IMG/VR virus record: IMGVR_UViG_3300023175_000076
Span: 1 to 44,211 of that record
Length of the DNA stretch: 44,211 nucleotides
Origin: a virus
Strand: one strand, 5' to 3'
Shown here: one piece after another, positions 1,376-43,889 of the stretch
Layout: every line of letters starts with the position of its first letter
Numbering within the stretch: position 1 is the stretch's first letter
Notes under the pieces: generated by a model
What the model was told of the DNA's origin: nothing
The model's database searches: none
What the model saw: the letters and a program-made list of their open reading frames with translations, nothing else
Program-made: the position numbers and the translations under genes

Positions 1376-2131
1376 ATGAATACTGATATGATAGTTAATA
1401 ATGGCAAATTTGATATGACATGGAGGGATGGAACCTACTATAGTTATTATCTGTTTGGCTTGCAAAGAACTGGTACAACTATAATTGAAAGAGTTATCAG
1501 AGATAACTGGAAAATGGCTAAAAGAAATGATCTCATTAATATTAAACAATCGGGGGTTACTCCACCATCTCCTGAAGTTTTGACGTGGAAACATTGCATT
1601 TGGGTTCCTGATAAATTTGAGCAAGGCTATCCTACAGTTTTAGTTTATAAAAATCCATATCTGTGGGTAGAGTCAATGGTTTATCGCAAAGGTTGTGCTC
1701 AAGGAAACTGGCAAAAAACCTATGGTGACTTATATTTTGAAAATCATTTTTGGAGAACCGATGAACACGATAATGGGTCGGTTTATATCGATCAACTCTT
1801 GAGAGTTTATAAAGTTTGGTTTGATAACTGGATTCCATATTATAAAAATAACAAAGATACAACCGTTCTTATTAAGTTCGAAGATTTGCTACCGCATGAC
1901 AATAGAATTCCTATTTTTAACGAATGCGCAGAAAAGTTTGGATGGGATAGATTTGAATTATCTGATTTAAATTGGGCAAATCACGTTGGTTCATCTGCAC
2001 CATTTACTCAAGCGAAAAAAGAATATTACCTTAATGGCGTACCAGAGCAGATTGGTCCTAATATCATCAACCTTGTTAACCAAATTATCGGCCGTGATTT
2101 AATTGAGGAATTGGGATACAAGGTCTTATAA
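1376..2131 (+). CDS. Sulfotransferase-like P-loop protein
   Basis: I start this 251-residue protein at ATG 1376, one base after the previous stop, because AGAGGG lies about seven bases upstream. A longer frame from TTG 1349 would overlap the upstream gene without a better ribosome site. Residues 26-35 (LFGLQRTGTT) fit the phosphate-binding loop of sulfotransferases. VYKNPYLWVESM (90-101) fits the 3'-phosphate-binding block, usually KNPYxWxxS. The rest is not diagnostic. It probably transfers sulfate to an unknown acceptor, like the gene at 47-700, to which it is only distantly similar. A late promoter octamer overlaps its stop codon. Confidence 0.6.
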   Translation: MNTDMIVNNGKFDMTWRDGTYYSYYLFGLQRTGTTIIERVIRDNWKMAKRNDLINIKQSGVTPPSPEVLTWKHCIWVPDKFEQGYPTVLVYKNPYLWVESMVYRKGCAQGNWQKTYGDLYFENHFWRTDEHDNGSVYIDQLLRVYKVWFDNWIPYYKNNKDTTVLIKFEDLLPHDNRIPIFNECAEKFGWDRFELSDLNWANHVGSSAPFTQAKKEYYLNGVPEQIGPNIINLVNQIIGRDLIEELGYKVL

Positions 2132-2134
2132 ATA
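2127..2134 (+). promoter_or_regulatory. T4-type late promoter octamer TATAAATA
   Basis: This is a perfect copy of the T4 late promoter octamer, which in T4 is read by RNA polymerase carrying the phage sigma gp55 and the coactivator gp33. It overlaps the stop of the upstream gene and lies 28 bases before the ATG at 2163. The same octamer occurs at similar distances before gp67, gp21, gp22 and gp23. Confidence 0.8.
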
Positions 2135-2162: not shown

Positions 2163-3467
2163 ATGGAAACCAGTAAAAAGAAAAAACTTAAGGGCTTTAA
2201 GGAACACGATCCTTCAAAGTATATTGAAACTGAGCCTACGATAGAAGAAGCAGCAAAGACCGGAACGGCTGTAGTGGCATGGGGTCGTATGAATCCTATA
2301 ACCTCGGGTCACGAAAAGCTAGTTAAGAAAGTTGTTTCTGTAGCAAAATCAGAAAAGGGCGTTCCTGAAATTTATCTTACTCATTCGTTTGATAATAAAA
2401 AGAATCCTTTAACATATACAGATAAAATTAGGTTAGCTCAAAAGGCATTCGGACCAGTTGTTAAAAAGTCTAATGCTAAAACAATCTTTGATCTTATGGC
2501 TCAGCTTAATAAAAAATACAATAAAGTTGTATTAGTTGCTGGTTCTGATAGAGTAGATGAATTTAGTAATACGCTTCAAAAATATAATGGGAAAGAATAC
2601 AAGTTTGATGAAATTAAAGTAGTCTCAGCAGGTCAAAGAGATGAAGAATCAGATGATGTATCGGGAATTTCAGGTACTAAAATGCGTGGATATGCAGCAA
2701 CTGATATGAAAAAGTTTACAGCAAATCTTCCAAAAAGACTTAAAGGCGATGCTGAAGAGATTGCAGCCGCAGTAAGAAAAGGTATGGGTATGACAGAGGA
2801 AGTAGAAATATTAGACGAAGTTCTATCTAGAAGAGGCCGTATTAAAAAAGCACTAGCAATGAAACGAGCTCGTGCTAAAATTAAATTAGGTCGTGAAAGA
2901 GCTGCTCGCAGAAGAGCTACAATGCCCGTTTTAAGAAAAAGAGCACGTAAAAGAGCGCTTGCTCTTTTAAAACAAAAATACTCAAAGCATAAGAGATATT
3001 CGGATCTAAGTCCAGCTGAAAAAGAGATTATTGATAAGCGTATTGCAAAAATTTCTAGAAGCAGAATTGAAAGAATAGCTCAAAAACAATTAATTCATGT
3101 TAAAAGAGCTGACAGAGACAGATTTATGACTGTTAAAAAAGAATCTGAAGAGATTTTAAAATTCAGTGACTTTTTATCTGAAGCATCACAAAAAGATACT
3201 CGTATTTTATCTAGGCCGCATATGCTTATGGATAAAGACAATAAACCAAAATTTGATGCAAGGTTTAAATTCTTTAAAAAACTAGCAATGTTTGGAGAAG
3301 ATTTGGAAGAATTTGATATAGAAAATATTGTTGAATTAATGGAAACAACAGAAAATTTTGCTGAGGAATGGGTATGCGGTAAATGTAACTGCGAGCCATG
3401 TACTTGCGAAAATATAACAGAAACAAAAACACAAAGATCATTATCTAGTATTCTTAGAAGAGGCTAA
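2163..3467 (+). CDS. Nucleotidyltransferase (cytidylyltransferase-like) with long basic tail and gp21-like cleavage sites
   Basis: The start is ATG 2163, with GGAG five bases upstream, giving 434 residues. Residues 36-180 form a CTP_transf_like nucleotidyltransferase domain. GRMNPITSGHEKL (41-53) contains the HxGH-type motif, and ISGTKMR (169-175) is the ISSTxxR counterpart. Residues 222-325 are extremely rich in Arg and Lys and probably helical, suited to binding DNA. The tail carries a cysteine cluster at 405-415 (CGKCNCEPCTC) that may bind a metal. Three sites fit the T4 gp21 protease rule (I/L-x-E): IEE|A at 27-30, LDE|V at 217-220 and LSE|A at 338-341. The last sits in FSDFLSE, which resembles the targeting peptide of the next genes. 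This suggests a packaged, processed protein. The enzyme domain is well supported; its substrate is unknown. Confidence 0.7.
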   Translation: METSKKKKLKGFKEHDPSKYIETEPTIEEAAKTGTAVVAWGRMNPITSGHEKLVKKVVSVAKSEKGVPEIYLTHSFDNKKNPLTYTDKIRLAQKAFGPVVKKSNAKTIFDLMAQLNKKYNKVVLVAGSDRVDEFSNTLQKYNGKEYKFDEIKVVSAGQRDEESDDVSGISGTKMRGYAATDMKKFTANLPKRLKGDAEEIAAAVRKGMGMTEEVEILDEVLSRRGRIKKALAMKRARAKIKLGRERAARRRATMPVLRKRARKRALALLKQKYSKHKRYSDLSPAEKEIIDKRIAKISRSRIERIAQKQLIHVKRADRDRFMTVKKESEEILKFSDFLSEASQKDTRILSRPHMLMDKDNKPKFDARFKFFKKLAMFGEDLEEFDIENIVELMETTENFAEEWVCGKCNCEPCTCENITETKTQRSLSSILRRG

Positions 3468-3468
3468 C

Positions 3469-4980
3469 ATGGATAGTTTTAAAAAATTTATTGAAGCGAA
3501 AGATACTCACAAAACCAAAGATGGCCGAACTGCTAAAAAAGGTTTATGGTATAACATTCATCAAAAGCGCAAGCGCGGTGAAGCACCAGCAAAGCCAGGT
3601 GATAAAGATTATCCAGCAACGTTAGATATTGGCGAAGCTAAGCGCAAAGGCGCACCTAAGATGAAAGATGATTGGTTAAAGCAAGAACGTGAAAGAAACC
3701 GTAAACATGACGCAGCAATGGGTCGTACACCAACAGGTCGCAAGAAGCCTGTTCGTCAAATGACTTCTACTCAGCGTTCACTTGCTCAGTTGCGCGGTGA
3801 ATCTCTTGAAGAAGGTATTCTAAAACCGTATCACGCAGCTGCTAAACAACCTTGGTCAAAAACAATGAAAGATTCTAAAGGTACTGCTGGTGAGTATAAG
3901 CAAATTGCAAAAGGTAAAGACTTTACTGTTTGGTATGCATATCGAGGATCAAACAAATCATTTCCACACTACGTAGTTAAAGATGATAAAATTATCGGTT
4001 CGGGTATGACAGTTAAATCTGCTCTAAAAGATGCTGGTTTAAAAGAGAAAGACCTTACACATCGTTCAAAATTTACTGATGGTTCTCCTTTAAATAAAGG
4101 TATTAATGAAGAAGTTGGTACTGCTGATTATCACAGAAAGAAAAAAGAGTATCATGCTAAAATGTCTAATCAACTACAGCATCAGATTGACACACACTAC
4201 GATAATGGCGACGATAAAAAAGCAGAACATGCAGAGAGAAAACAACAGGATCACGAAAATGCTGCAGATGCGCATCATGACGCTCATAACGAAATTAAAA
4301 AATATGGGCGTGAAGCTGATCGTAGTACAATCAACCGTGCAGTAAAAATGTCTCAAAAACTTAAAGAACAAGTTGAACTCGAAGAAGGTAATATGATGTC
4401 TGCCGCAAAAGAGCTTGAGGCCTATGCTCGTAAGAATGGTGGCATTGATAAAAACGACTTTATGAAAGCAGTTATGATGATGAAGAAAAATCAAAAGAGA
4501 CAGCTTGATAAGTTTGTTGATGAGTTAGATACAGAACCTCGTGAGAAAATTCTTTCAGTAATGCAGAAACACATGAAAGAATCTCTTGATAGCAGATTTG
4601 AAGCATTTTTAGATGAAAAGCTTAAAGCATCGGATGATATGGGTACTTGGGTAAAAGATTTTTATAAATCAGACGCACCTCAATTTAAAGGCAAATCAAA
4701 AGATGAACGCCGTAAAATGGCCGTTGCCGCTAAGTTGAGTGCTGAGCGTAACGAAGAAACGGAGATCGATGAACTGTCAATGTCATTAAAAGACTTAACA
4801 AAGTCCGGCGTTAGTAATATATCAAAAGCGATGAAAGCCGATAAAACCAAAAAAGAATTAGAAGCGTTAAAAAAGCGTTTAAATGATCGCGAGCGCTTAA
4901 ACAAAGAAGAACATGGGGCAGGTGACGAAGGAACTGACGAGTTGGTAAAAAAGTTTAAAAAAGACACACCTAATGCTTAG
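3469..4980 (+). CDS. Putative large internal (packaged) head protein
   Basis: This 503-residue, lysine-rich protein begins MDSFKKFIEAKD, one of a set of similar N-termini in this cluster that resemble the T4 internal-protein targeting peptide MKTYQEFIAE. It contains four further sites fitting the gp21 rule: LEE|G after residue 115, LEE|G after 306, LDE|K after 383 and IDE|L after 435. These would divide it into several basic fragments. A segment near 408-425 (KGKSKDERRKMAVAAKL) looks like a helix repeated in related phage proteins. No catalytic domain is recognised. Position and composition suggest it is loaded into the prohead and cut during maturation. The stop overlaps the next start. Confidence 0.6.
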   Translation: MDSFKKFIEAKDTHKTKDGRTAKKGLWYNIHQKRKRGEAPAKPGDKDYPATLDIGEAKRKGAPKMKDDWLKQERERNRKHDAAMGRTPTGRKKPVRQMTSTQRSLAQLRGESLEEGILKPYHAAAKQPWSKTMKDSKGTAGEYKQIAKGKDFTVWYAYRGSNKSFPHYVVKDDKIIGSGMTVKSALKDAGLKEKDLTHRSKFTDGSPLNKGINEEVGTADYHRKKKEYHAKMSNQLQHQIDTHYDNGDDKKAEHAERKQQDHENAADAHHDAHNEIKKYGREADRSTINRAVKMSQKLKEQVELEEGNMMSAAKELEAYARKNGGIDKNDFMKAVMMMKKNQKRQLDKFVDELDTEPREKILSVMQKHMKESLDSRFEAFLDEKLKASDDMGTWVKDFYKSDAPQFKGKSKDERRKMAVAAKLSAERNEETEIDELSMSLKDLTKSGVSNISKAMKADKTKKELEALKKRLNDRERLNKEEHGAGDEGTDELVKKFKKDTPNA

Positions 4981-5137
4981 TTTTAAACAATACATGGAAG
5001 AAATAAACAGACATGGTATTCCAAAAGATGCTACGAAATCGGAGTTGGAAAAAGTAAGATCTGATAAAAATTCCAGTAAAGGTGCTAAACATTTAGCTCA
5101 TTGGTTATTAAATATGCACCATAATAAAAAAGGTTAA
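4973..5137 (+). CDS. Small protein with SFKQYM targeting-like N-terminus
   Basis: This 54-residue gene starts at ATG 4973, inside the end of the upstream gene, and stops at 5135-5137. It begins MLSFKQYMEE, matching the family N-terminus. The remainder (SELEKVRSD, then KGAKHLAHWLLNMHH) looks like a short helical protein with a conserved-looking HW pair. No function is recognised. It is probably co-packaged with its neighbours. Confidence 0.6.
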   Translation: MLSFKQYMEEINRHGIPKDATKSELEKVRSDKNSSKGAKHLAHWLLNMHHNKKG

Positions 5138-5139
5138 AT

Positions 5140-5334
5140 ATGAAAAGCTTTAAACAACATATAAAAGAAAATATCCCCCCAGAGATAGTAGGGGCAGCAA
5201 TAGCTGCTCCTGTTATCGCACAAGGTGCTAAACATGTTGCTAAAGGTGCATATAAAACTGTAAAAGGTTTAATGAAGGCTAAAAAAGCTGCTAATAAAAC
5301 TGGTGAAAAAATTGCAAAAAGGCTAGTAAAATAA
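5140..5334 (+). CDS. Small basic protein with SFKQHI targeting-like N-terminus
   Basis: This 64-residue protein begins MKSFKQHIKE, the closest copy here of the T4 targeting peptide MKTYQEFIAE. Residues 15-31 are rich in Ala, Ile, Val and Pro and could be an amphipathic or membrane-active helix. Residues 32-64 carry many lysines. If gp21 cuts after the Glu at residue 10, the mature part would be a short amphipathic cation. Function unknown; packaging is inferred. Its stop overlaps the next ATG. Confidence 0.6.
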   Translation: MKSFKQHIKENIPPEIVGAAIAAPVIAQGAKHVAKGAYKTVKGLMKAKKAANKTGEKIAKRLVK

Positions 5335-5423
5335 TGGCTAAAAAATCATTAGAAGAAGCTATTAAAGAGGCATTAGCTAAAAAAGCTAAACCAAAGCCTA
5401 AGCCAGAGAATAAAGATGATTAG
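5334..5423 (+). CDS. Very small Lys/Pro-rich protein
   Basis: This 29-residue frame lies exactly between two coupled genes, with TAATG overlap upstream and ATGATTAG overlap downstream. It reads MAKKSLEEAIKEALAKK followed by a KPKPKP repeat. LEE|A at residues 6-9 fits the gp21 cleavage rule. The perfect overlaps on both sides support translation. No function can be assigned. Confidence 0.5.
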   Translation: MAKKSLEEAIKEALAKKAKPKPKPENKDD

Positions 5424-5709
5424 ATTTAAACAATATATCTCAGAAGGTATTAAGTTAAAACTTATACGCGGAAAAACGCAAGACGTTTTAAAAATGTGGG
5501 AAAAGGGCAATAAGACTTGGGTTGAACTTAGAGGTAAGCCTGGGTTTGAAACAATGTATGATCCGAAAGATCCATTACACAAAGCGATTACAGCTTTAGG
5601 AAAGTCTGCTAATATATCTGATTTCGTAAATGGAGATGAGGTAAGTATTAATCCAAACCATCCTGATGGTAAGAAGGCATTAAAAACAATAAAAGGTCTG
5701 ATGAAATGA
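5416..5709 (+). CDS. Putative internal head protein, FKQYISE type
   Basis: This 97-residue protein begins MIRFKQYISEGIK, so ISE|G places a gp21-type cleavage site after residue 10, where T4 internal proteins are cut. The body reads like a small beta-rich domain (KLIRGKTQDVLKMW, GNKTWVELRGKPG) and ends in a helix KKALKTIKGLMK. No enzyme motif is seen. Its start lies inside the end of the previous small gene and its stop overlaps the next ATG. Confidence 0.6.
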   Translation: MIRFKQYISEGIKLKLIRGKTQDVLKMWEKGNKTWVELRGKPGFETMYDPKDPLHKAITALGKSANISDFVNGDEVSINPNHPDGKKALKTIKGLMK

Positions 5710-5951
5710 TTAGTTTTAAACATTTTTTAGAAGAAGGCACTCTAGATGAAGGCTCTGAAACATGGGAAGCTGGATATAAAAGACGCGTGGTAAAAACTAC
5801 AAAACCTGAGCATAAAGCAAAAGGTCACAATTGGCGTATCAAAGGTAAAGATCGTCCTGAGATCTCAATTAAGCTTTATAAAGAAAAACCTTCACAAGCA
5901 GAATTTAATAAACAAATGCGCAGAGTAGCAGGACATGAATTCGGAGGATAA
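5706..5951 (+). CDS. Putative internal head protein, SFKHFLEE type
   Basis: This 81-residue protein begins MISFKHFLEEG. LEE|G after residue 10 is a good gp21-type site, and a second (LDE|G) follows after residue 15. The mature part is basic (pattern RRVVKTTKPEHKAKGHNW) and resembles no known enzyme. It overlaps the upstream gene by ATGA and is followed after five bases by the next gene, whose Shine-Dalgarno GGAGG lies inside this stop region. Confidence 0.6.
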   Translation: MISFKHFLEEGTLDEGSETWEAGYKRRVVKTTKPEHKAKGHNWRIKGKDRPEISIKLYKEKPSQAEFNKQMRRVAGHEFGG

Positions 5952-5956
5952 CAAAC

Positions 5957-6331
5957 ATGTCAGATATTAAAAAATTAGTAAAAGAATCATTTTTAGAAAC
6001 GCTGGAAGCAATGAGTGAAAGCGACGATCATACCGTGTTAGAAAAAGAACCACATAGACCTGGATGGAAAGAATTCGATGGTAAAGATCGCCGCATGTGG
6101 CAGATGCGCCACAGCAACCGAGGAGCATTGTCTAAGCTTAAAAAAGGTATGACCGATCATGAAAAGAAACACATGAAAGGTGCATATATTGATGATGGCG
6201 ATGTTGTGCATAGAAAAACTGGTAGAACTATGTCATATCTTTTAAATCATAAGAATGGTAAAGCTAAAACATATGGTGAAGTTCGTAAAGAAATTCAAGC
6301 CCATATTGCTAAGAATCACCCAGAGAAATAA
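5957..6331 (+). CDS. Hypothetical late protein in the internal-protein cluster
   Basis: This 124-residue protein starts nine bases after GGAGG (5943-5947). It begins MSDIKKLVKESFLETLEAMSE, so its N-terminus is helical but lacks the FKQY motif. The body is rich in His, Lys and Arg (DRRMWQMRHSNRGALSKLKKG; DGDVVHRKTGRTMSYLL). Residues 68-124 could be a small DNA-binding or structural domain. I recognise no family. Its placement implies late expression and possibly packaging. Confidence 0.55.
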   Translation: MSDIKKLVKESFLETLEAMSESDDHTVLEKEPHRPGWKEFDGKDRRMWQMRHSNRGALSKLKKGMTDHEKKHMKGAYIDDGDVVHRKTGRTMSYLLNHKNGKAKTYGEVRKEIQAHIAKNHPEK

Positions 6332-6332
6332 A

Positions 6333-6689
6333 ATGAAAACTTTTACTAGATACACAGAAGAACGCATTGATGATATCTGCGAAGAGTGCAACCTTTACGA
6401 AGATCTTATTGTAGAAGAGTCCGAATACGAAGGTAAGAAAGTTAAACTTAACGATCCTATTCGTACTTCTGAGCACCCAGGTAAAAAATTTAAAGTTTAT
6501 GTAAAAAATGATAAAGGCAATGTTGTTGTAGTTCGTTTTGGTGATCCAAATATGGAAATTAAAAGAGACGATCCTGCCCGCCGCAGAAGTTTCAGAGCTC
6601 GCCACGGATGCGACAATCCTGGTCCAAAGTGGAAAGCAAAATATTGGTCGTGTTATCAATGGCGCGCAGGTGCTAAAGTAGATAACTAA
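6333..6689 (+). CDS. Conserved-looking late protein with Cys/Trp-rich C-terminus
   Basis: I start this at ATG 6333, right after the upstream stop, giving 118 residues; a longer frame from 6255 would lie inside the previous gene. It begins MKTFTRYTEERID, a loose copy of the targeting-like N-terminus. The C-terminal third (RARHGCDNPGPKWKAKYW, then SCYQW) has two cysteines and several tryptophans in a pattern I associate with small proteins of marine T4-like phages, whose function is unknown. A metal site using the two Cys and a His is possible but not shown. Confidence 0.6.
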   Translation: MKTFTRYTEERIDDICEECNLYEDLIVEESEYEGKKVKLNDPIRTSEHPGKKFKVYVKNDKGNVVVVRFGDPNMEIKRDDPARRRSFRARHGCDNPGPKWKAKYWSCYQWRAGAKVDN

Positions 6690-6695
6690 TAAATA
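6688..6695 (+). promoter_or_regulatory. Late promoter-like octamer AATAAATA
   Basis: This differs from the T4 late octamer only at the first base. It sits 33 bases before the ATG at 6729, the spacing seen for the perfect copies in this window, and is followed by TC as at 2127 and 32744. Confidence 0.5.
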
Positions 6696-6728
6696 TCACA
6701 ATAAATCAATTAAGATACGGGTATAATA

Positions 6729-7316
6729 ATGCATTCGTTTAAACAATACATGGAAAGTTCTAAAGAAAAATTAGCAAACTATGCTAATAAAGCTATTAAG
6801 GACAAAGAAAACGCGAAGTACCAAAAGGATAGAGCTCAAAATTCTAGAGCTGCTAACATTGTTCGCGGAAATCCTGAAGGTGCTAAAAAAGATGTTGAAG
6901 CAATTAATAAGGCTGATGACAGACTTCGCCGTCGTGAGCGCGGTGCACATTTATATACGCGCAAAATGATGAAAAAAGAAGAATCATTAGATATGTCAGA
7001 AGAACAACAATATGATTTAATTGAACAGTATTTGTTAGAAAATAATATTGACATTGATACTTTGACAGAGGAAGAATTGAACGAGCTTATCGGTAAGATT
7101 ATTGGCGGAGCAGCTAAACTTGCTGGTAAAGGCGTTGTTGGTGCTGCCAAATTAGCAGCCAAAGGAATAAGAAGATACGGAACTACCGCGGGTCGGGCTG
7201 ACGCTGCTGAGAAAAAAGCAGACAGAGCTGAAAAGAAAAATAAAGATCGCGAACGTATTAGAAAAGCACAAGCTAGGCTTCAAGCCGCACGACAAGCGGC
7301 CGCATCAAATCCATAA
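6729..7316 (+). CDS. Putative internal head protein, SFKQYME type
   Basis: This 195-residue protein begins MHSFKQYMESSKEK, matching the cluster N-terminus. Its middle is acidic (about residues 85-120, DMSEEQQYDLIEQYLLEN). It is followed by an Ala/Gly/Lys-rich stretch (about 120-150, IIGGAAKLAGKGVVGAAKL) that could form an amphipathic, membrane-active helix. The last 45 residues are a highly charged Lys/Arg/Ala helix. The alternating acidic, amphipathic and basic blocks suit a protein ejected with DNA, though this is inferred. It has its own late-type promoter. Confidence 0.6.
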   Translation: MHSFKQYMESSKEKLANYANKAIKDKENAKYQKDRAQNSRAANIVRGNPEGAKKDVEAINKADDRLRRRERGAHLYTRKMMKKEESLDMSEEQQYDLIEQYLLENNIDIDTLTEEELNELIGKIIGGAAKLAGKGVVGAAKLAAKGIRRYGTTAGRADAAEKKADRAEKKNKDRERIRKAQARLQAARQAAASNP

Positions 7317-7345: not shown

Positions 7346-7642
7346 ATGGCACTTTGGGGAAAAACAGACGCATCTGGTTCCATTCCAAAATATTTGGAAA
7401 CAGCGGCGGCAAACACAAACAAATCACATGACGCGGATAACGCTGTCTTTGTTGACGTTACAGAAGCAGGTGTTGCAGCAAACCGTGCACGCGGAGTTAA
7501 AACACCAGGTTGGAACCTATACAACACATATACTACTGCAGACGGCCGTACACGCCATATCGTAGAGCCTCTAGTTGTAATGAAGGTTTCAGCAACAGAT
7601 GCTGGTGACCAAGCAGACGACGCTATCGCAGCAGACAGCTAA
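7346..7642 (+). CDS. Putative virion structural protein (MALWG type)
   Basis: This 98-residue protein starts seven bases after AAGGAG. It begins MALWGKTDASGSIPKYL, an N-terminus I associate with small virion proteins of marine T4-like phages. The rest is neutral, Ala/Asp/Thr-rich and probably beta-stranded (AVFVDVTEAG, GWNLYNTYTTADGRTRHIVE, PLVVMKVSATDAG). Its codon use is richer in C and G than the flanking small genes, as expected of a highly expressed structural gene. A decoration or tail-associated role is a guess. Confidence 0.5.
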   Translation: MALWGKTDASGSIPKYLETAAANTNKSHDADNAVFVDVTEAGVAANRARGVKTPGWNLYNTYTTADGRTRHIVEPLVVMKVSATDAGDQADDAIAADS

Positions 7643-9604: not shown

Positions 9605-9823
9605 ATGTCATTAGAAAAAATTATTAAAGAGGCAGTCGAAGGAAATCCTCTTAACATGAAAGAAGCATTTAAGGAAGAAATGGAAGCAAGAGTACTTGCA
9701 GCCATTGAAGCAAAATACGAAGCCATGATCGCGGAAGAATCAGACGAAGATGAAGATGAGGATGACGAAGATCAAGACGATGACGATGATGATGACGAAG
9801 ATGAGGACGAGGACGAAGATTAA
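9605..9823 (+). CDS. 67: Prohead core protein gp67 (PIP)-like
   Basis: This 72-residue protein has an N-terminal helix with the pattern IIKEAVEGNPLNMKEAF then MEARVLAAIEAK, followed by an almost purely Asp/Glu tail (45-72). T4 gp67, a prohead core protein cleaved by gp21, has the same design: about 80 residues, a helical N-terminus and a long D/E-rich tail. It starts nine bases after AAGGAG and behind a perfect late promoter. In T4 gene 67 lies between genes 20 and 21; here it is elsewhere and on the opposite strand to gene 21. Low-complexity tails can mislead, but the helix pattern also agrees. Confidence 0.65.
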   Translation: MSLEKIIKEAVEGNPLNMKEAFKEEMEARVLAAIEAKYEAMIAEESDEDEDEDDEDQDDDDDDDEDEDEDED

Positions 9824-11196: not shown

Positions 11197-12213
11197 ATGG
11201 TAGACTTTACAGATCTAAAATATGCTCAGATGCTTTCGGGCAGACTTGACAATTTTAGAATAAAAAACACAAATCCCTACAAAATTAATTTCAGGTGTCC
11301 TGTATGTGGTGATTCTCAAAAATCCCGCAGTAAGGCACGTGGATGGTTACTAGAACGTGATAATAAATTTTCATATTATTGCCATAATTGTGGCACGTCT
11401 CAAGGTTTCTCGTTCTTTCTAAAGGGTGTCGATCAGCTAATATATAATGATTATGTATCTGAAAAGTTTATAAACAAAGCTAACAACGAACCTAAAGAAA
11501 CTAAAACCGACGACTCATTATTTAAAACAGAAACACCAAAGTTTAATAAGAGTTGCCCATTAAAAAAGATTAAAAAGGTTAGTCAATTAAAACATGACCA
11601 TCCAGTTAAAAAATATATTCAACAAAGAAAAATACCGACTCAACATCATTATCGTTTATATTATGCTAGGCATTTTAAAACTTGGATTAATAGTGTATTA
11701 CCTGGAAAGTTTGAAAATGTAGGCAAAGATGAGCCAAGACTTATCATTCCTTTTATAGATAGTAATAGAAATTGCTTTGGCGTATCTGCTCGTGGATTTG
11801 ATCCCAAAGGAATTAGATATATAACTATAATGTTTGAAGAAAGACCAAAGATTTTTGGTTTAGATAAAGTAGATTTCAGCCAACCTTATTATATTACAGA
11901 AGGTGCTATTGACAGTATGTTCCTTGAAAACGCTGTTGCGATGGCTGGTGCTGAAGGTAATACAAAAGGAGTAGAACAACCGGAAAATGCAATCTTTGTT
12001 TTTGACGCTGAGCCTCGAAACAAAGAAATCCATAAACGTATGGAAAAAGTTATTAAGAATGGTTATAAGATATGTATATGGCCTTCTGAACTTCCTGGAA
12101 AAGACATTAATGAAATGTATTTGTCAGGATTAAACCCAGAAAAAATTATTGAAGAAAATACTTATCAAGGCTTACAAGCTGAATTGAAATTTGCCGAGTG
12201 GCGAAAAGTTTAA
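11197..12213 (+). CDS. 61: DNA primase, T4 gp61 family
   Basis: The length of 338 residues matches T4 gp61 (342). The N-terminal zinc ribbon has C34 and C37 (CPVCGDS) and C62 and C65 (CHNC), with the conserved KSRSKARGW between them. The TOPRIM-like catalytic part has YITEGAIDS (232-240, with E235 and D239) and FVFDAEPRN (267-275, with D270). gp61 makes the pentaribonucleotide primers for lagging-strand synthesis together with helicase gp41. Two tandem sigma70-like promoters precede it, so expression is early. Confidence 0.92.
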   Translation: MVDFTDLKYAQMLSGRLDNFRIKNTNPYKINFRCPVCGDSQKSRSKARGWLLERDNKFSYYCHNCGTSQGFSFFLKGVDQLIYNDYVSEKFINKANNEPKETKTDDSLFKTETPKFNKSCPLKKIKKVSQLKHDHPVKKYIQQRKIPTQHHYRLYYARHFKTWINSVLPGKFENVGKDEPRLIIPFIDSNRNCFGVSARGFDPKGIRYITIMFEERPKIFGLDKVDFSQPYYITEGAIDSMFLENAVAMAGAEGNTKGVEQPENAIFVFDAEPRNKEIHKRMEKVIKNGYKICIWPSELPGKDINEMYLSGLNPEKIIEENTYQGLQAELKFAEWRKV

Positions 12214-14324: not shown

Positions 14325-15980
14325 ATGGAAAAATATTATTGGTTAAACGAAGATTCGCGCACTTTTTTGTCTCGCGGTTATTTGGCTGAAGGCGAGACTC
14401 CTGAGCAGCGCATTCGCGATATCGCAGAAAAAGCAGAAGAATATCTTCATGAGGAAGGCTTTGCAGACAAGTTTGTAGATTATATGGCAAGAGGATTTTA
14501 TTCTCTAGCTTCTCCGGTATGGGCAAACTACGGCAAGAAACGTGGTTTGCCTGTATCTTGTTTTGGTTCATATATTGACGACAGTATGCAAGCTATTATG
14601 TTTAGCCACGCCGAGAATGGCATGCTAATGAAAAATGGTGGTGGTACATCGGGATATTTTGGCGCAATTCGTGGGCGCGGCGCTCCTATTCAAGACGCAG
14701 GCGAGTCATCGGGTTCAGTTCACTTTATGCAGTTATTTGATACTCTTGCATCTGTTGTGTCACAAGGTTCCGTCCGCCGTGGTTTCTTTGCAGCCTATCA
14801 AAATATTGAACATCCAGATGCTGACGAGTTTTTGGATATTGCTACAGAAGGCAATCCTATCCAAGGACTAACAACTGGCATTACAGTATCTGACCAGTTC
14901 ATTGAAGATATGAAAGCTGGGGATAGTCAAAAGCGTGCATTATGGGCAAAGGTACTACAACGTCGTTCTGAGGTTGGTTTTCCATATATCCTATTCTCTG
15001 ATAATGTTAACAATGGTCGCCCTCAAGTCTATAAAGACAAAGATATGCGAGTTCATGCATCTAATATGTGTGCTGAGATTGCACTACCATCATCCCATGA
15101 AGAAACATTCACTTGTGTTCTATCATCAATTAATGTGCTGCATTGGGATGAGATTAAAGAAACTGATGCTATTGAGACTATGACTAAATTCCTTGATACT
15201 GTTTGTGAAGAGTTTATTCGTAAAACAGAAGGTCAGATTTATATGAAACGTGCTCGTGATTTTGCTATGAACCACCGCGCACTTGGTGCTGGTATTCTTG
15301 GTTGGCACTCATATCTACAGTCCAAAATGATTGCATTTGAGTCAAGTGAAGCTGCTCAACTGAACCATGAAATTGCACAAACTTTGCGTGAAAGATCACA
15401 CGCTGCATCTCGTGAATTGGCTAAAAAGTTTGGCGAACCAGCAGTACTTGAAGGTTACGGAATGCGCAATACTACAACAATGGCTATTGCTCCAACCAAA
15501 TCGTCAAGCTTTATTCTTGGCCAAGTATCACAATCTATTGAGCCAGAGTTCTCTAACTGTTATGTTAAAGACCTTGCCAAAATGAAAGTAACAATTAAAA
15601 ATCCATACCTTGAAAAACTGCTAAAAGAAAAAGGTGAGGATAAAGACGAAGTATGGGAGTCAATACGTAATGCTGATGGCTCAGTACAACATCTTGATAT
15701 TTTAACTGAGGATGAAAGAGCAGTATTTAAAACATTCTCTGAAATTAACCCTGAAAGAATTATTGATCAAGCTGCTATTCGTCAGCAATATATCGATCAA
15801 TCTCAGAGTTTAAACCTTATGTTAGATCCTGACATGTCAGTTAAAGAAATTAACCAGCTTTATCTATATGCGTGGGAAATGGGTATAAAAAGTTTGTATT
15901 ACAGCTATTCAATGTCTGCGGCGCAATCTTTGACTCGTAAGCGTGTTATGGCAGAAGGGTGTGCAGCCTGCGAAGCGTGA
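14325..15980 (+). CDS. nrdA: Class I ribonucleotide reductase alpha subunit lacking the ATP-cone
   Basis: This 551-residue catalytic subunit reduces ribonucleoside diphosphates for phage DNA synthesis. Active-site residues are all visible: Cys79 (PVSCFGS) and Cys264 (FTCVLSSIN) as the redox pair, and N247-M-C249-A-E251 for radical chemistry. Tyr525-Tyr526 (LYYSYS) serve radical transfer, and the C-terminal pair C546 and C549 (CAAC) accepts electrons from glutaredoxin. The protein starts directly at the catalytic domain and is about 200 residues shorter than E. coli NrdA, so the N-terminal ATP-cone is missing. It follows nrdB after nine bases with AAGGAAAAG as ribosome site. A glutaredoxin lies at 25428. 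Confidence 0.93.
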
Positions 15981-38828: not shown

Positions 38829-39244
38829 AAATTTTAATTATGGGATTGCCGGGTGCTGGTAAAACTCACCTGGCAAAACGATTACAAGTGCATTTAAACT
38901 GTGCATGGTATAATGCAGATAAAGTTCGCGAAATGGCTAATGACTGGGATTTCAGCGATGCTGGTCGTCGTAGGCAAAGCGAACGTATGAATATGATTGC
39001 TACTTTTGAAGCAACACGTGCACGTACTGTTATTTGTGATTTTGTATGTCCAACTGGCGAAACACGTAAGCAGTTTAATGCAGACATTACTATTTGGATG
39101 GATACTATCACCGCCGGACGTTATGAGGATACTAATAAGGTATTTGAACGGCCCGATGAAGTAGATTACCACGTTCAAGGTTTTCAATCAGACGAAGAGA
39201 TTATTGAATTTGCTAACTTATTAAAGGAGAAGCATAATGTATGA
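38825..39244 (+). CDS. Adenylylsulfate kinase-like protein
   Basis: This 139-residue P-loop protein has GLPGAGKTHLA (7-17), then WYNADKVREMANDWDFSDAG followed by RRRQSERM, a form close to APS kinases (CysC), where the segment 'LDGDxxR...D..FSxxDRxENxRR' binds APS. The later half (VICDFVCPTGETRKQF) also fits. APS kinase makes PAPS, the donor for sulfotransferases, so it may serve the sulfotransferase-like genes at 47-2131 and 17647. It is shorter than CysC, and other small-molecule kinases remain possible. Confidence 0.65.
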   Translation: MKILIMGLPGAGKTHLAKRLQVHLNCAWYNADKVREMANDWDFSDAGRRRQSERMNMIATFEATRARTVICDFVCPTGETRKQFNADITIWMDTITAGRYEDTNKVFERPDEVDYHVQGFQSDEEIIEFANLLKEKHNV

Positions 39245-39659
39245 TAAGCCACGATTTGATTGGAAAAAACCAACTACACAAATGTTAGGACGATGGCAAC
39301 CTTGGCATGACGGACATACTGAGTTATTCAAGCGCTGTTTATCTGAAACCGGACAAGTTGCTATTATGATTCGTGATGTGTTTAACTTTGACGGCGATGC
39401 TGGTGCTGGTCGTACTGCAGCTCAAACTGACAATCCTTTTGGTGTAATACAAGTTATTGATAATATGAAAGCCGCATTAGAAAAAGAAGGATATCACGAC
39501 GGCTACGAATACATAATCATGGAAGTACCTAATATTGTTGATATTAGCTATGGACGGGGTGTGGGTTATACCTTTACACAACACGACCTAGGTCAAAAAA
39601 TTCACGATATTAGCGCTACAAAAATTAGAGCTAAAATGAGGGAAGATGGAAAATTATAA
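39237..39659 (+). CDS. Nucleotidyltransferase-like protein (HxGH type)
   Basis: This 140-residue protein has GRWQPWHDGHTELF (18-31), the 'G-R-F-x-P-x-H-x-G-H' motif of cytidylyl- and adenylyltransferases, and ISATKIR (125-131), the ISSTxxR counterpart. It may transfer AMP or CMP to a small phosphate. Its gene overlaps the APS-kinase-like gene, so ATP-sulfurylase-like activity is a possibility, but the sequence alone does not show it. Confidence 0.72.
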   Translation: MYDKPRFDWKKPTTQMLGRWQPWHDGHTELFKRCLSETGQVAIMIRDVFNFDGDAGAGRTAAQTDNPFGVIQVIDNMKAALEKEGYHDGYEYIIMEVPNIVDISYGRGVGYTFTQHDLGQKIHDISATKIRAKMREDGKL

Positions 39660-40230
39660 CTTTATTGAGTATTATGATTATTCATTATCTAAAAATAAAT
39701 GTGAAAGATTTATAAAATATTTTCACGACAATCCGGATTTAACTAAAGATGGATCAATGTATAATGCGGAAAAGGGATCTCATGTAAATAAAGAGTTTAA
39801 AGACTCAAAAGATTTATCTTCATATAACATGCCTGGTCAATTTGTACATCATTACTTAGAAGAAACAATCAGCTCTTGCGTAAGTAAATATGTTTCTAAG
39901 TATAGAAACGCTGGTGCAATGGTCCCATTTTCTGCTAGAGAATTTTTTAATATGCAATGGTATCCTCCTGGCGCTGGGTTTAAACAATGGCATTGCGAGG
40001 TTGCATGTAATCCTGAGCCAGAAAGAGGTTTAAGACATTTGGTTTTTATGACATATCTTAACACGGTAGAAGATGGGGGAACTGAATTTCAATACCAAAA
40101 TTTAACATTGGATGCGGTTCAAGGTCGTACTGTTATATGGCCTTCAATGTGGACACATTTTCATCGAGGAGTTGTTTCTCAAACACGAGACAAATATATT
40201 TTAACTGGTTGGCTAAATTTTGAAAAATAG
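39646..40230 (+). CDS. 2OG-Fe(II) oxygenase-like protein with HxE motif
   Basis: This 194-residue protein resembles prolyl-4-hydroxylase-type oxygenases: MQWYPPGAGFKQWHCE (iron site), FMTYLNTVEDGGTEFQY, AVQGRTVIWPSMWTHFHRG and TRDKYILTGWL. The expected H-x-D is here H116-x-E118, the distal His is 171 or 173 and Lys183 may bind 2-oxoglutarate. The Asp-to-Glu change makes activity uncertain. It differs in sequence from the oxygenase at 35701. Substrate unknown. Confidence 0.72.
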   Translation: MENYNFIEYYDYSLSKNKCERFIKYFHDNPDLTKDGSMYNAEKGSHVNKEFKDSKDLSSYNMPGQFVHHYLEETISSCVSKYVSKYRNAGAMVPFSAREFFNMQWYPPGAGFKQWHCEVACNPEPERGLRHLVFMTYLNTVEDGGTEFQYQNLTLDAVQGRTVIWPSMWTHFHRGVVSQTRDKYILTGWLNFEK

Positions 40231-40799: not shown

Positions 40800-42107
40800 T
40801 TAGAATAGGTTAGATACGCGTACTCTGCGATAGTATTCGTTTGCGTCGCGTGTAAGTGCGCCAAGACCTTGTGTTGTGCCTTCTGCGAATGGGTTTGCAA
40901 CCATGCCGTAGCGAGTTTTGAACCCGATTTTTGGCTGGAAGCTGTTCTCACCAACTGCGCGAACCATTTGTAATGGAACGTATGGGCAGTAGAAGAGACC
41001 TGCGTCAAACGCTGAAGAACCTTTGTAGCCAACAACCATGTAGTTGCTGCCTGCATATGGGTCAACATATACTTTATAACGGCCGTTAAGAACACCAGCG
41101 AATGTGTTGCCTGTGTCGTCAACTGAAAGGCTGTTAGAGTTAAGTGCTGGAGCGTAATCAAGTACACCCGCCATCTGCAACGCTGAAGCAACGTCTGAAG
41201 AACAGATAACGATGTTACCTTTACCGCGACGTGTACCTTTTGCAATTGCGTTTGCTTCTTGCTCAACTTGGAACATTAGGCCTTTGAATTTTTCTACTGA
41301 CCAGCGACCGTTTGCGTCGACGTCTAAGTCAAAGATACCAGCTGATGATGTGCCAGTTGCGCCTTGTTTAGCTGTTTGATAAATTGTACGAACAAGCTCG
41401 CGGTTGATTTCAACCAAGATTTCTGATTGAAGAATGTTTGCAAGCTCTGTTTCAGCGTCAAGACCGTGAACTGCTTTAAGGTCTTGTGCCAATTCAGTTG
41501 TGTACTCAGCTTTTAGCGCTCTTGATTTTGCAGTTACAGCAACTTTCTCGATTGAGAATGCCATTTCTGCCATTGTTGTGCCGTCGCCAAGATCTTCAGC
41601 AGTACCTGTGTCCATACCTGTACCAGTTGTGAATAGTGTTGTATTAGAAACACCACCAGTTGAACCAGTTTGTGCACCTGTACCAGCAAGTGTTGTGTCT
41701 GCTTCGTTGTAGAAGACTTCAGCACCAGCTTGTGAAGTTTTGCGTGAACGCATTGCGAAGATCAAGCCTGTTGGGCCTGTCATTGGCTGAACACCAGCAA
41801 TGTCGTATGCCATTAGGTTTGGCATTGCGCGACGTACTAATGAAATAAGGATTGGGTCATAACCAGCTGTTGGACCAGCTGCTGTTGAACCTGCACCGAA
41901 ACCACCAGTACTTGCATCGTTAGCTGGTGATTCCATAAGAAGTGAGCTCATTGCAAGCTGACGATCGCCAGATTCCAATAACGCTTTTTCTGTGTTTTCC
42001 AAGATAGTAGCTGTTACAGCTTTCTTATGTTGGTCCGCGATTGTCGAAAAAGATTCGTGCTCAAGGATTGGGCCCCACTTTTCGACAAGATTTTGATAGT
42101 TTGACAT
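40800..42107 (-). CDS. 23: Major capsid protein gp23
   Basis: This 435-residue protein has the T4 gp23 landmarks: AGYDPILISLVRRAMPNLMA then YDIAGVQPMTGPTGLIFAMR, LAQDLKAVHGLDAETELANI, and an end in YYRRVRVSNLF. T4 gp23 loses its first 65 residues to gp21; here LME|S after residue 59 is a good candidate cut, preceded by a helical targeting region. It is shorter than T4 gp23 (521) but of normal length for marine T4-like phages. It follows a late promoter and ends in a strong terminator. Codon use is C/G-rich in the third position, typical of high expression. Confidence 0.97.
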   Translation of the reverse strand: MSNYQNLVEKWGPILEHESFSTIADQHKKAVTATILENTEKALLESGDRQLAMSSLLMESPANDASTGGFGAGSTAAGPTAGYDPILISLVRRAMPNLMAYDIAGVQPMTGPTGLIFAMRSRKTSQAGAEVFYNEADTTLAGTGAQTGSTGGVSNTTLFTTGTGMDTGTAEDLGDGTTMAEMAFSIEKVAVTAKSRALKAEYTTELAQDLKAVHGLDAETELANILQSEILVEINRELVRTIYQTAKQGATGTSSAGIFDLDVDANGRWSVEKFKGLMFQVEQEANAIAKGTRRGKGNIVICSSDVASALQMAGVLDYAPALNSNSLSVDDTGNTFAGVLNGRYKVYVDPYAGSNYMVVGYKGSSAFDAGLFYCPYVPLQMVRAVGENSFQPKIGFKTRYGMVANPFAEGTTQGLGALTRDANEYYRRVRVSNLF

Positions 42108-42165: not shown

Positions 42166-43140
42166 TTATTTTCTTGCGTTAAGAGCCTCAACGAGAGCAT
42201 TGATTGAAGAATAGTCAGAAGCTGGTTTTTTAACCTCTGTTTCTTCTGTGATGATCTCTTCTTCTTCAGCATCGTTTTCTTCAACGATTGGCTTTTCGTC
42301 AGCGAAGAATGATTCTTTTAGAATGTTAAGGTTTGAAGTATATTCTTCGACATCGCCGAAGTCAAGCTTTTCAGAAAGAACTTTTAGACGCTCACGTTGT
42401 GTCATTGTGAGATCTTCTGCTAGTTCATCAAAAACTTTCGCCGCTTTAAACGCTGCGATTTCCTTTGCAAGAGCTAGGTTCTCATCGATTTGCTTATTTG
42501 CTTCTTCTTTGAGTTCGTTAACTTGCTCTTCCAAACCAGCAACAACGTCTACAACTTCGTCATCAACTTCAATGTTGTGCTCTTCGAATAGATTACGAAG
42601 GCCATCCATTAATGACTCTGCCATTTCAACTTTGATACCAGATTCAACTGCTAGTTCGTTTTCTTTCATCCACTCTTCTACTACGTAGTCGAGATATGAG
42701 TCAAGATTTTCAACCATTGTTTCAATAGATGCGTCGATTGACTCATTCATTGATGCTTCTAGTTCAGCAGTTTTTTCTTCAACAATAGCAGTTGCTTTTG
42801 CTGTAGCTGCTTCATTAACAGCCGCTTCAAAAACAACAGTAACTTTATTTTTGAATTCTTCTGAAAGGTCCATGCCTTCAAACATAGCTGCAACAGATTC
42901 GTCGATAGAAACTACTTCTTCCTCGATGATTTCATCTGCTTCTTCAGCTTCTACTTCTTCTGCTTTAACAGCACCTTGACCAGGTGTTGCTGTGTCAACC
43001 TTATCGGCTTTTTCGCCAGGTTTCTTTTTGTCTTTACCGTGCTTTGCTGCACCACCTTCCGGTGTTACAGGTTCCGCAGCAGTCGATGGATCGCCAAAGG
43101 AAGCTTTGAATTCTTCCAATGTGTCTGTATTATCTGACAT
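42166..43140 (-). CDS. 22: Prohead scaffold (core) protein gp22
   Basis: This 324-residue, very acidic protein is mainly long helices and low-complexity stretches (e.g. EAEEADEIIEEEVVSIDESV, EEQVNELKEEANKQIDENLA), as in T4 gp22. A conserved helix (FKAAKVFDELAEDLTMTQRE) lies in the second half. IDE|S and other I/L-x-E sites would let gp21 destroy the scaffold before packaging. It stands between genes 21 and 23 in the T4 order and has a late promoter. It starts after AGGAG. Confidence 0.9.
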   Translation of the reverse strand: MSDNTDTLEEFKASFGDPSTAAEPVTPEGGAAKHGKDKKKPGEKADKVDTATPGQGAVKAEEVEAEEADEIIEEEVVSIDESVAAMFEGMDLSEEFKNKVTVVFEAAVNEAATAKATAIVEEKTAELEASMNESIDASIETMVENLDSYLDYVVEEWMKENELAVESGIKVEMAESLMDGLRNLFEEHNIEVDDEVVDVVAGLEEQVNELKEEANKQIDENLALAKEIAAFKAAKVFDELAEDLTMTQRERLKVLSEKLDFGDVEEYTSNLNILKESFFADEKPIVEENDAEEEEIITEETEVKKPASDYSSINALVEALNARK

Positions 43141-43190: not shown

Positions 43191-43889
43191 TTATTTTCTC
43201 AGCGTATTTATAAAACGTTCAAACATTCTTGAAGCCAATGCCTCATCGATTGTATGGATTGTGCGCTTATAATGTCTTTTAACTTCTTTTTGAATCTCTT
43301 CGACAACCTCTGCAACTTCTTGTTGTTGCGCTTTTGGTAACCAAGAGTTAGAAGCAATATCATAGTAATATTCAATATTCTCCATGATACCATTGACAAA
43401 GCAATTAGGCCCAGATGGGTCAGTTACAATATCAACAGTTGCAAGATGGAAATCGTCTTGTACTTCCATAATGCCGTCTTTAGTTGGTTTTACAGAACCA
43501 AGGCCACGTGTAGAAACGCCAATCCTTACGCCTTCATCCATAAATGTTTTAACAATCTCACCCATTGGAGTGCTAAGGATTTTAGCTTTACCAATAAAGT
43601 TAGAACCATCTCTTTTCATCTCAGTAATGAGATGAGAAACACGGTCGCCATTAATTGTTGGGCCATCTGGGTGACCCAATTCACCGAGTGCACGTTTTGT
43701 GTCGATGAAATCTTTTTGATAGCGAACCATCTCTTTTTCAAGAACCTGACTAGGATACCAACGCCCATTGCGGTTCTTTAAATCCCCTTGCATGAAAATA
43801 CCTTCGATGAAGTGAGATTTTTTACCAGTGGCCTCGTCAAGAACAGAGGATACTGAGCATTCTTCCACAACTTCTGTAATTAATTTCAT
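43191..43889 (-). CDS. 21: Prohead core protease gp21
   Basis: This 232-residue protein is the T4 gp21-type serine protease (peptidase family U9 / herpesvirus-assemblin fold). GIFMQGDLKNRNGRWYP (30-46), ALGELGHPDGP with the active His73, and RIGVSTRGLGS with Ser126 are the catalytic blocks. It cuts the scaffold, gp23 and internal proteins after I/L-x-E. LDE|A near residue 19 could be a self-cleavage site. Its targets probably include the internal-protein cluster at 2163-7316. Start is 24 bases after a late octamer, with AAGGA before the ATG. Confidence 0.93.
   Translation of the reverse strand: MKLITEVVEECSVSSVLDEATGKKSHFIEGIFMQGDLKNRNGRWYPSQVLEKEMVRYQKDFIDTKRALGELGHPDGPTINGDRVSHLITEMKRDGSNFIGKAKILSTPMGEIVKTFMDEGVRIGVSTRGLGSVKPTKDGIMEVQDDFHLATVDIVTDPSGPNCFVNGIMENIEYYYDIASNSWLPKAQQQEVAEVVEEIQKEVKRHYKRTIHTIDEALASRMFERFINTLRK
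43205..43212 (-). promoter_or_regulatory. Second late promoter octamer before gene 22
   Basis: A second minus-strand TATAAATA in the last codons of gene 21, 28 bases upstream of the first. It may be a tandem late promoter, or it may be chance in a Lys/Tyr-coding segment. Confidence 0.5.

Follow-up and report, generated by a model that had tools for sequence, protein, structure and literature searches.

The window analysed here is a 44,211-nucleotide stretch of viral DNA (IMG/VR record IMGVR_UViG_3300023175_000076, positions 1 to 44,211), and the question it raises is why seven genes between 2163 and 7316, which encode dissimilar proteins, begin with nearly the same ten-residue peptide, hereafter the tag. 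Judged by its gene content (gp21, gp22, gp23, core, head and primase genes), this 44.2-kb contig represents part of the genome of a marine T4-like phage. The preliminary description had likened the peptide to the capsid-targeting sequence of T4 internal proteins, and this comparison is supported by the match to the T4 determinants, the restriction to N-termini, the gp21, gp22 and gp23 genes on the contig, the head-gene neighbourhood with its late-promoter-like sites and the virion proteomes of relatives. Hence, the ten-residue N-terminus is very probably a T4-type capsid-targeting sequence, portable over unrelated bodies, which would lead to docking on gp22, cleavage by gp21, retention in the head and injection.

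A common start on dissimilar genes

Of the nine genes between 2163 and 7316, all on the + strand, seven share the start M-x-x-F-x-x-[FYH]-[ILMT]-x-E or differ from it slightly, and the seven peptides originally reported indeed stand at true open reading frame (ORF) starts. The gene at 3469..4980 encodes a basic protein of 503 amino acids (aa) with the tag MDSFKKFIE/A (the slash marks the predicted cut), which holds a DGRTAKKGLWYN segment common to cyanophage proteins. It is followed by genes for a 54-aa protein (4973..5137; MLSFKQYMEE), a 64-aa basic protein with a hydrophobic Ala-rich stretch (5140..5334; MKSFKQHIKE), a 97-aa protein from a family of about ten, most of which keep the tag (5416..5709; MIRFKQYISE), an 81-aa protein (5706..5951; MISFKHFLEE), a 118-aa protein of phrog_7595 with a weak DUF5754 match below the cut-off (6333..6689; MKTFTRYTEE), whose start was reassigned to the second start within a longer ORF from 6255, and a 195-aa Ala/Lys-rich basic protein (6729..7316; MHSFKQYMES). 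The remaining two are a cytidylyltransferase/NMNAT-like gene without an N-terminal tag (2163..3467; PF01467, phrog_3041, phrog_395), from the family of the cyanophage T4-GC190 virion proteins, and a gene for a 124-aa protein (5957..6331), whose start MSDIKKLVKES is an aliphatic variant of the pattern and was not scored as a tag. Because the latter interrupts the series, the tagged genes are not strictly consecutive, contrary to what had been stated; seven of nine neighbours carry the tag.

In the T4 capsid-targeting sequence, targeting depends on residues 4 and 7 and processing on residues 8 and 10, with gp21 cutting after L/I-x-E (PMC9026906). The positions conserved in the window are these same determinants, with Phe at position 4 and Phe, Tyr or His at position 7 in all seven tags. 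The gp21 signature, an aliphatic residue at 8 and Glu at 10, is complete in four of the seven (4973, 5140, 5416 and 5706); the terminal Glu noted earlier is at position 10 in five tags and at position 9 in the other two (3469 and 6729). In the 6333 tag, the targeting residues are present and position 8 is Thr, with which cleavage appears doubtful. Relatives of the 5706 protein on two other contigs (L013 and L037) have a conserved body, GSETWEAG, directly after the predicted cut (MKRFRQFIE/GSETWE and MKSFKEFISE/GSETWE).

The resemblance among the seven genes ends with the tag: averaged over all pairs, 68% of the first 30 nucleotides are identical, compared with 29% of the following 60. The bodies are unrelated, as had been proposed, and every one of them is basic in net charge (+4 to +28); they are not all small, one protein having 503 aa. 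The chance of finding all seven tags in nine of about 87 genes is P = 6e-9, for a motif that was chosen after the genes had been seen. Codons differ among the seven tags, and the residues important in T4 are kept.

The T4 rule in relatives and in IMG/VR

A strict rule was built from the residues defined by T4 genetics (4, 7, 8 and 10) and is independent of the window genes; it recovers T4 ipII and ipIII, plus gene 61.1. Among contigs related to the window, it matches 31 of 919 ORF starts vs 1 of 4163 internal Met residues. In 14 isolate genomes and one complete contig (G001), the rule gave 19 matches at 3896 ORF starts vs 3 at 14603 internal Met residues. The ORF caller missed some tags through the choice of start codon or a longer ORF on the opposite strand (5416 and 6333), and for this reason both strict and relaxed rules are reported.

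Selection by the motif itself was avoided by using four window proteins without their first 12 residues as queries, which gave homologues with 74 distinct N-termini. An aromatic residue stands at position 4 in 74% of them (background 11%) and an aromatic residue or His at position 7 in 61% (background 12%); both occur together in 44 of 74 (59% vs 1.9%), and all four positions agree in 39% vs 0.32%. In addition, the DNA of IMG/VR was scanned with the back-translated motif MK[ST]FK[QE][FY]-hydrophobic-x-E, and at least 120 matches were found vs 6 in the whole collection for a control with the inner residues reordered. Most of the matches listed stand at ORF starts, and 76 of the 80 loci kept among them encode proteins of T4-like phages.

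The suggestion of an expanded arsenal finds wider support than had been expected, since 57 unrelated body clusters stand behind the tag among the matches listed and the head-locus contigs examined. Their domains include cytidylyltransferase, HD hydrolase, RimK-type ATP-grasp, zeta-toxin-like P-loop kinase, GNAT, a weakly matched methyltransferase, a double-psi barrel lytic transglycosylase domain and DUF6267, and much of the recognisable cargo in these other contigs looks like metabolic or regulatory enzymes. Moreover, an S-adenosylmethionine (SAM) lyase, PF23780, directly follows the tag in four contigs (L243, L263, L270 and L287); a search of PDB sequences using one tagged SAM lyase as query turned up no relative of known structure.

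T4 injects Ip1, Ip2 and Ip3, which inhibit GmrSD restriction enzymes (PMC12373910), and by this analogy an anti-defence role is reasonable for some bodies. The suggestion of such a role is supported in part: in relatives, the tagged SAM lyases are plausible anti-restriction cargo and could blunt SAM-dependent restriction, but in the window, domain and family searches matched no body to an anti-defence function or to a family that inhibits type IV restriction. A Foldseek search of the PDB with predicted structures of the 5416 and 6333 families (mean predicted local distance difference test score 76-77) gave no match below E = 0.3, and no function is therefore claimed for these two bodies. No function was assigned to any of the seven window bodies by domain search or, for those two families, by fold search.

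Virion proteomes and competing explanations

Enzymes such as cytidylyltransferase/NMNAT, kinases, SAM hydrolase and 'Cas9' have repeatedly been found in marine cyanophage virions, where they are unexplained and suspected to be contamination. In S-CREM2, for which Table 3 gives 52 virion proteins, the authors regarded the SAM hydrolase, an APH/ChoK-like kinase, the cytidylyltransferase and 'Cas9' as non-structural proteins that could be co-purified (PMC10665884). The SAM hydrolase, ORF6 (L336:3837-5081), starts with MKDFDSFLEE, has PF23780 behind this tag and was detected in virions, as were the kinase ORF14 ((V/M)KRFDAFLTE), the cytidylyltransferase ORF154 (MKNFSSFLTEA), the small neighbour ORF13 (MKDLHSFLTE) and the 'Cas9' ORF12, which has LRFASFMAEA at residues 17-26. 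The 'Cas9' label comes from GenBank, and Pfam finds no domain in the protein; what appear to be its counterparts, close to the kinase in S-N03, S-B68 and S-H34, have GFS[NS]F[LI]-x-EA at a similar position. Likewise, the virion-detected T4-GC190 protein of S-SM1 starts with MKKFSAFLNEA (PMC3037559), the virion NMNAT ORF91 of S-SCSM1 with MKSFLQFLKEA (PMC9602691), and the virion protein S-SZBM1_140 with MRFRQFIIEA, one residue shorter (PMC9146016). The kinase of S-CRM01, with virion status as cited in PMC10665884, starts with MISFDQFLSE.

Across three proteomes, with misses counted, six of ten tagged proteins were detected (P = 0.004; the numbers are small), and in S-CREM2 all four tagged non-structural proteins were (P = 4e-4, leaving out ORF175, whose tag is weak and which was not detected in the virions reported). 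The cyanophage cytidylyltransferase/NMNAT, APH/ChoK-like kinase and SAM hydrolase virion proteins (T4-GC190; S-CREM2, S-SCSM1, S-SM1 and S-SZBM1) thus carry the tag, and the genes around the cytidylyltransferase correspond to those around the window cluster. These proteins were reported as unexplained, and no mention of a targeting sequence was found in the available parts of the papers. A ten-residue tag that predicts packaged proteins would give a testable rule for unexplained virion enzymes, and it would name many candidate injected effectors in widespread viruses, including likely anti-restriction SAM lyases.

The tag thus probably marks protein cargo that would be injected with the phage DNA. 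Through its aromatic residues 4 and 7, the tag would dock each protein on the prohead core formed by the gp22 scaffold, and gp21 would cut after Glu9 or Glu10 when position 8 is aliphatic. The basic body released in this way would remain alongside the DNA in the head and be delivered into the host when the phage infects. The tag precedes many unrelated bodies in T4-like phages that infect aquatic bacteria, and these phages would thus carry a variable cargo, including enzymes. For the tagged proteins of the window, packaging is likely, and we infer from their sequences that they may also be cleaved and injected.

Several points weigh against such targeting. S-SZBM1_191, S-SZBM1_192 and S-SCSM1_30 have good tags and were not detected in the published virion proteomes, and under the strict rule alone four of seven tagged proteins are detected (P = 0.02). 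The strict rule finds no match in HTVC008M, phiM12 and S-PM2, and the relaxed matching rules were partly fixed after the data had been seen. Within the window, the Thr at position 8 of the 6333 tag and the Glu at 9 in two other tags depart from the T4 pattern. The published lists give peptides per protein and not N-termini, so that cleavage after Glu stays a prediction, and the authors of the S-CREM2 and S-SCSM1 reports allow for mere co-purification of such proteins (PMC10665884, PMC9602691). Virion detection is known for relatives only, the window phage being described from its DNA, and detection in a virion does not prove cleavage or injection.

It might also be supposed that the tag does no more than hold these proteins on the gp22 core, where they would serve as scaffold or core parts, like T4 gp67 and gp68, and be degraded and expelled before DNA packaging with no injection. 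We regard this as unlikely. The basic bodies, some of low complexity (6729 and 5140), would suit such a role, a gp67-like gene is among the neighbours, gp21 cuts T4 core proteins to fragments (PMC9026906), and some tagged proteins are missing from the virion lists; however, tagged enzymes of relatives are present in mature virions, and SAM lyase, ATP-grasp and HD domains are implausible as scaffold.

Two further explanations concern the shared start itself. It is very improbable that it serves translation or another assembly function (through start-codon context or a different late partner) in place of head packaging. The similarity is short and lies at the start codon, as the high identity of the first 30 nucleotides illustrates, but the codons differ while the T4-critical residues are kept, the tag coincides with virion detection, and further copies of the motif stand within proteins at module borders, a position that excludes a role in translation. 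Start-codon context was rejected on the differing codons and the internal copies. We give a shade less credence still to the idea that the seven genes are one family from a recent tandem duplication of which the N-terminus alone is still recognisable. The genes are adjacent, on the same strand and similar at their starts, whereas their bodies lack mutual similarity and belong, in other contigs, to separate families that are each tagged; recent duplication was rejected because the bodies are unrelated. A packaged and injected cargo with a T4-type targeting sequence is the reading retained here.

Known systems, module borders and gene neighbourhood

Capsid-targeting sequences and internal proteins as a kind are already known from T4 and its close relatives. 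Like T4 IPI, IPII and IPIII (MKTYQEFIAE), the window genes encode a ten-residue start that is aromatic at positions 4 and 7 and, in four of the seven, has an aliphatic residue at 8 with Glu at 10; they also have unrelated basic bodies, are clustered, and share their genome with gp21 and gp22. Unlike them, the repertoire is much larger, its bodies are unrelated to those of T4, the predicted cut is often followed by G, K, S or I in place of A, the motif also occurs inside larger proteins, and the phages infect aquatic bacteria and are not T-even. T4 Alt, a packaged and injected ADP-ribosyltransferase processed by gp21, is a precedent for enzyme cargo; it has its own short propeptide, whereas one common tag here precedes many enzyme types. 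The ejection proteins of SPN3US/phiKZ-type giant phages are also head cargo cut by the prohead protease after Glu (PMC9026906), but these are other phages, and they are likened by description and not by sequence. The same review already suggests the targeting sequence as an evolutionary means to load various proteins, and it covers both targeting sequence and cyanophages without linking the former to the unexplained virion enzymes. A literature search without preprints and subscription journals found no such link elsewhere, and no earlier extension to marine or freshwater T4-like phages as a multi-body tag that includes enzymes.

T4 gene 61.1, a hypothetical gene adjoining the primase gene 61 (NC_000866 18966-19130, - strand; L338), starts with MKTFKEFIKED and fits the rule, which makes it a candidate for an unrecognised T4 internal protein; the window cluster is likewise bounded by a primase gene (11197).

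Copies of the motif inside proteins were also found. The window cytidylyltransferase (2163) has an internal tag-like ILKFSDFLSE/A (3153..3182, + strand; KFSDFLSE/A, residues 333-340), conserved in two other contigs (L072 and L077) and weaker in a third (L010), whereas the cyanophage cytidylyltransferases have the sequence at the N-terminus instead. In the 3469 protein, RFEAFLDE (4594..4617, + strand; from residue 376 onward) is followed by KLKASDDMGTWVKDF, and this unit forms the start of separate genes in L077 and L072, with the start MQGFKKHLEE/KLKASDDMGTWVKDF (MQGFKKHLEE/KLKASDDMG...) in L077. This suggests that the tag may also work, or be cut, at module borders. A strict scan for C-terminal motifs found none; the C-terminal case KKRTFKEFLEYIE in S-SCSM1_93 (L337:5627-5836) falls outside the strict rule and is a lead only. 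In the KAQQRF/KQQRF-type family to which it belongs (with L050:6121, S-ShM2 106488 and S-SZBM1_194), the tag-like sequence is N-terminal in some phages and C-terminal or inside in others. A broader proposal, which we put forward tentatively and rate somewhat below an even chance, is that T4-like phages of aquatic bacteria use the tag as a general and portable code for delivery, at N-termini and at internal or C-terminal module borders of larger proteins, that some head-cluster genes encode polyproteins from which gp21 cuts several injected proteins, and that the cargo includes enzymes which act simultaneously on host SAM, nucleotides and proteins.

On the - strand, family matches identify genes for the gp23 major capsid protein (40800..42107), the gp22 scaffold protein, presumed docking partner of the tag (42166..43140), and the gp21 prohead protease, presumed to process it (43191..43889); the contig thus encodes the protease and core protein that a T4-type system requires (phrog_207 and phrog_237). 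The gp23 of the contig shares about 60-66% identity with its counterparts in Methylophilales phage Melnitz, Sinorhizobium phages, HTVC008M and cyanophages, and a near-identical contig (L001) is present in IMG/VR along with many relatives. On the + strand, family matches identify a phrog_613 head protein (7346..7642), the same neighbour as in the cyanophage cluster, a prohead-core-like protein of phrog_1064 (9605..9823) and a phrog_47 DNA primase (11197..12213), which by position also bounds the same cluster end as in S-SM1. In the window and in cyanophages alike, a cytidylyltransferase is followed by variable genes, a phrog_613-type head protein and, later, a DNA primase (in S-ShM2 by family search for the head protein, and in S-SM1 by position and annotation), and several genes at the corresponding S-SCSM1 locus are annotated as virion proteins.

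By sequence and spacing, TATAAATA, a T4-late-promoter-like box (2127..2134, + strand), lies 36 base pairs (bp) upstream of the 2163 start, and boxes of this type stand 30-45 bp upstream of 2163, 6729 (box at 6688), 9605, 10613, gp21, gp22 and gp23. Such a box is not rare in an AT-rich contig, and the evidence lies in its spacing to head-gene starts; its presence before both the cluster and the head genes fits joint late expression. Before the scanned tag genes, similar boxes show only a slight rise (19 of 86 vs 117 of 815 for all ORFs) and were for that reason dropped as general evidence. Three genes (47-2131) precede the cluster, the first sulfotransferase-like (phrog_3347) and the other two with no family match, and they possibly function in surface-sugar modification.

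The tag also heads a family of proteins about 106 aa long (NISGDFNGNLY, phrog_1742), which includes S-SZBM1_191 (L370:1512-1829), S-SCSM1_30 (L371:1716-2036) and members on several IMG/VR contigs; S-SCSM1_30 lies upstream of the gene for the terminase large subunit, at a distance of two genes, and the family was not detected in two virion proteomes. An HD-domain protein (HD_4) stands behind the tag at L244:279-842 and L075:8545, and by its motifs it is possibly a ppGpp-type hydrolase, which would be unusual as a packaged protein. At L252:2357-3910, four successive genes start with MKTFKEYLEE or MKTFKEYIRE, and one of the bodies is HAD-type phosphatase-like (weak DUF2608). In Vibrio phage KVP40, a gene at 39187-39834 starts with MKQFCNFLAE, and its body looks methyltransferase-like by eye.

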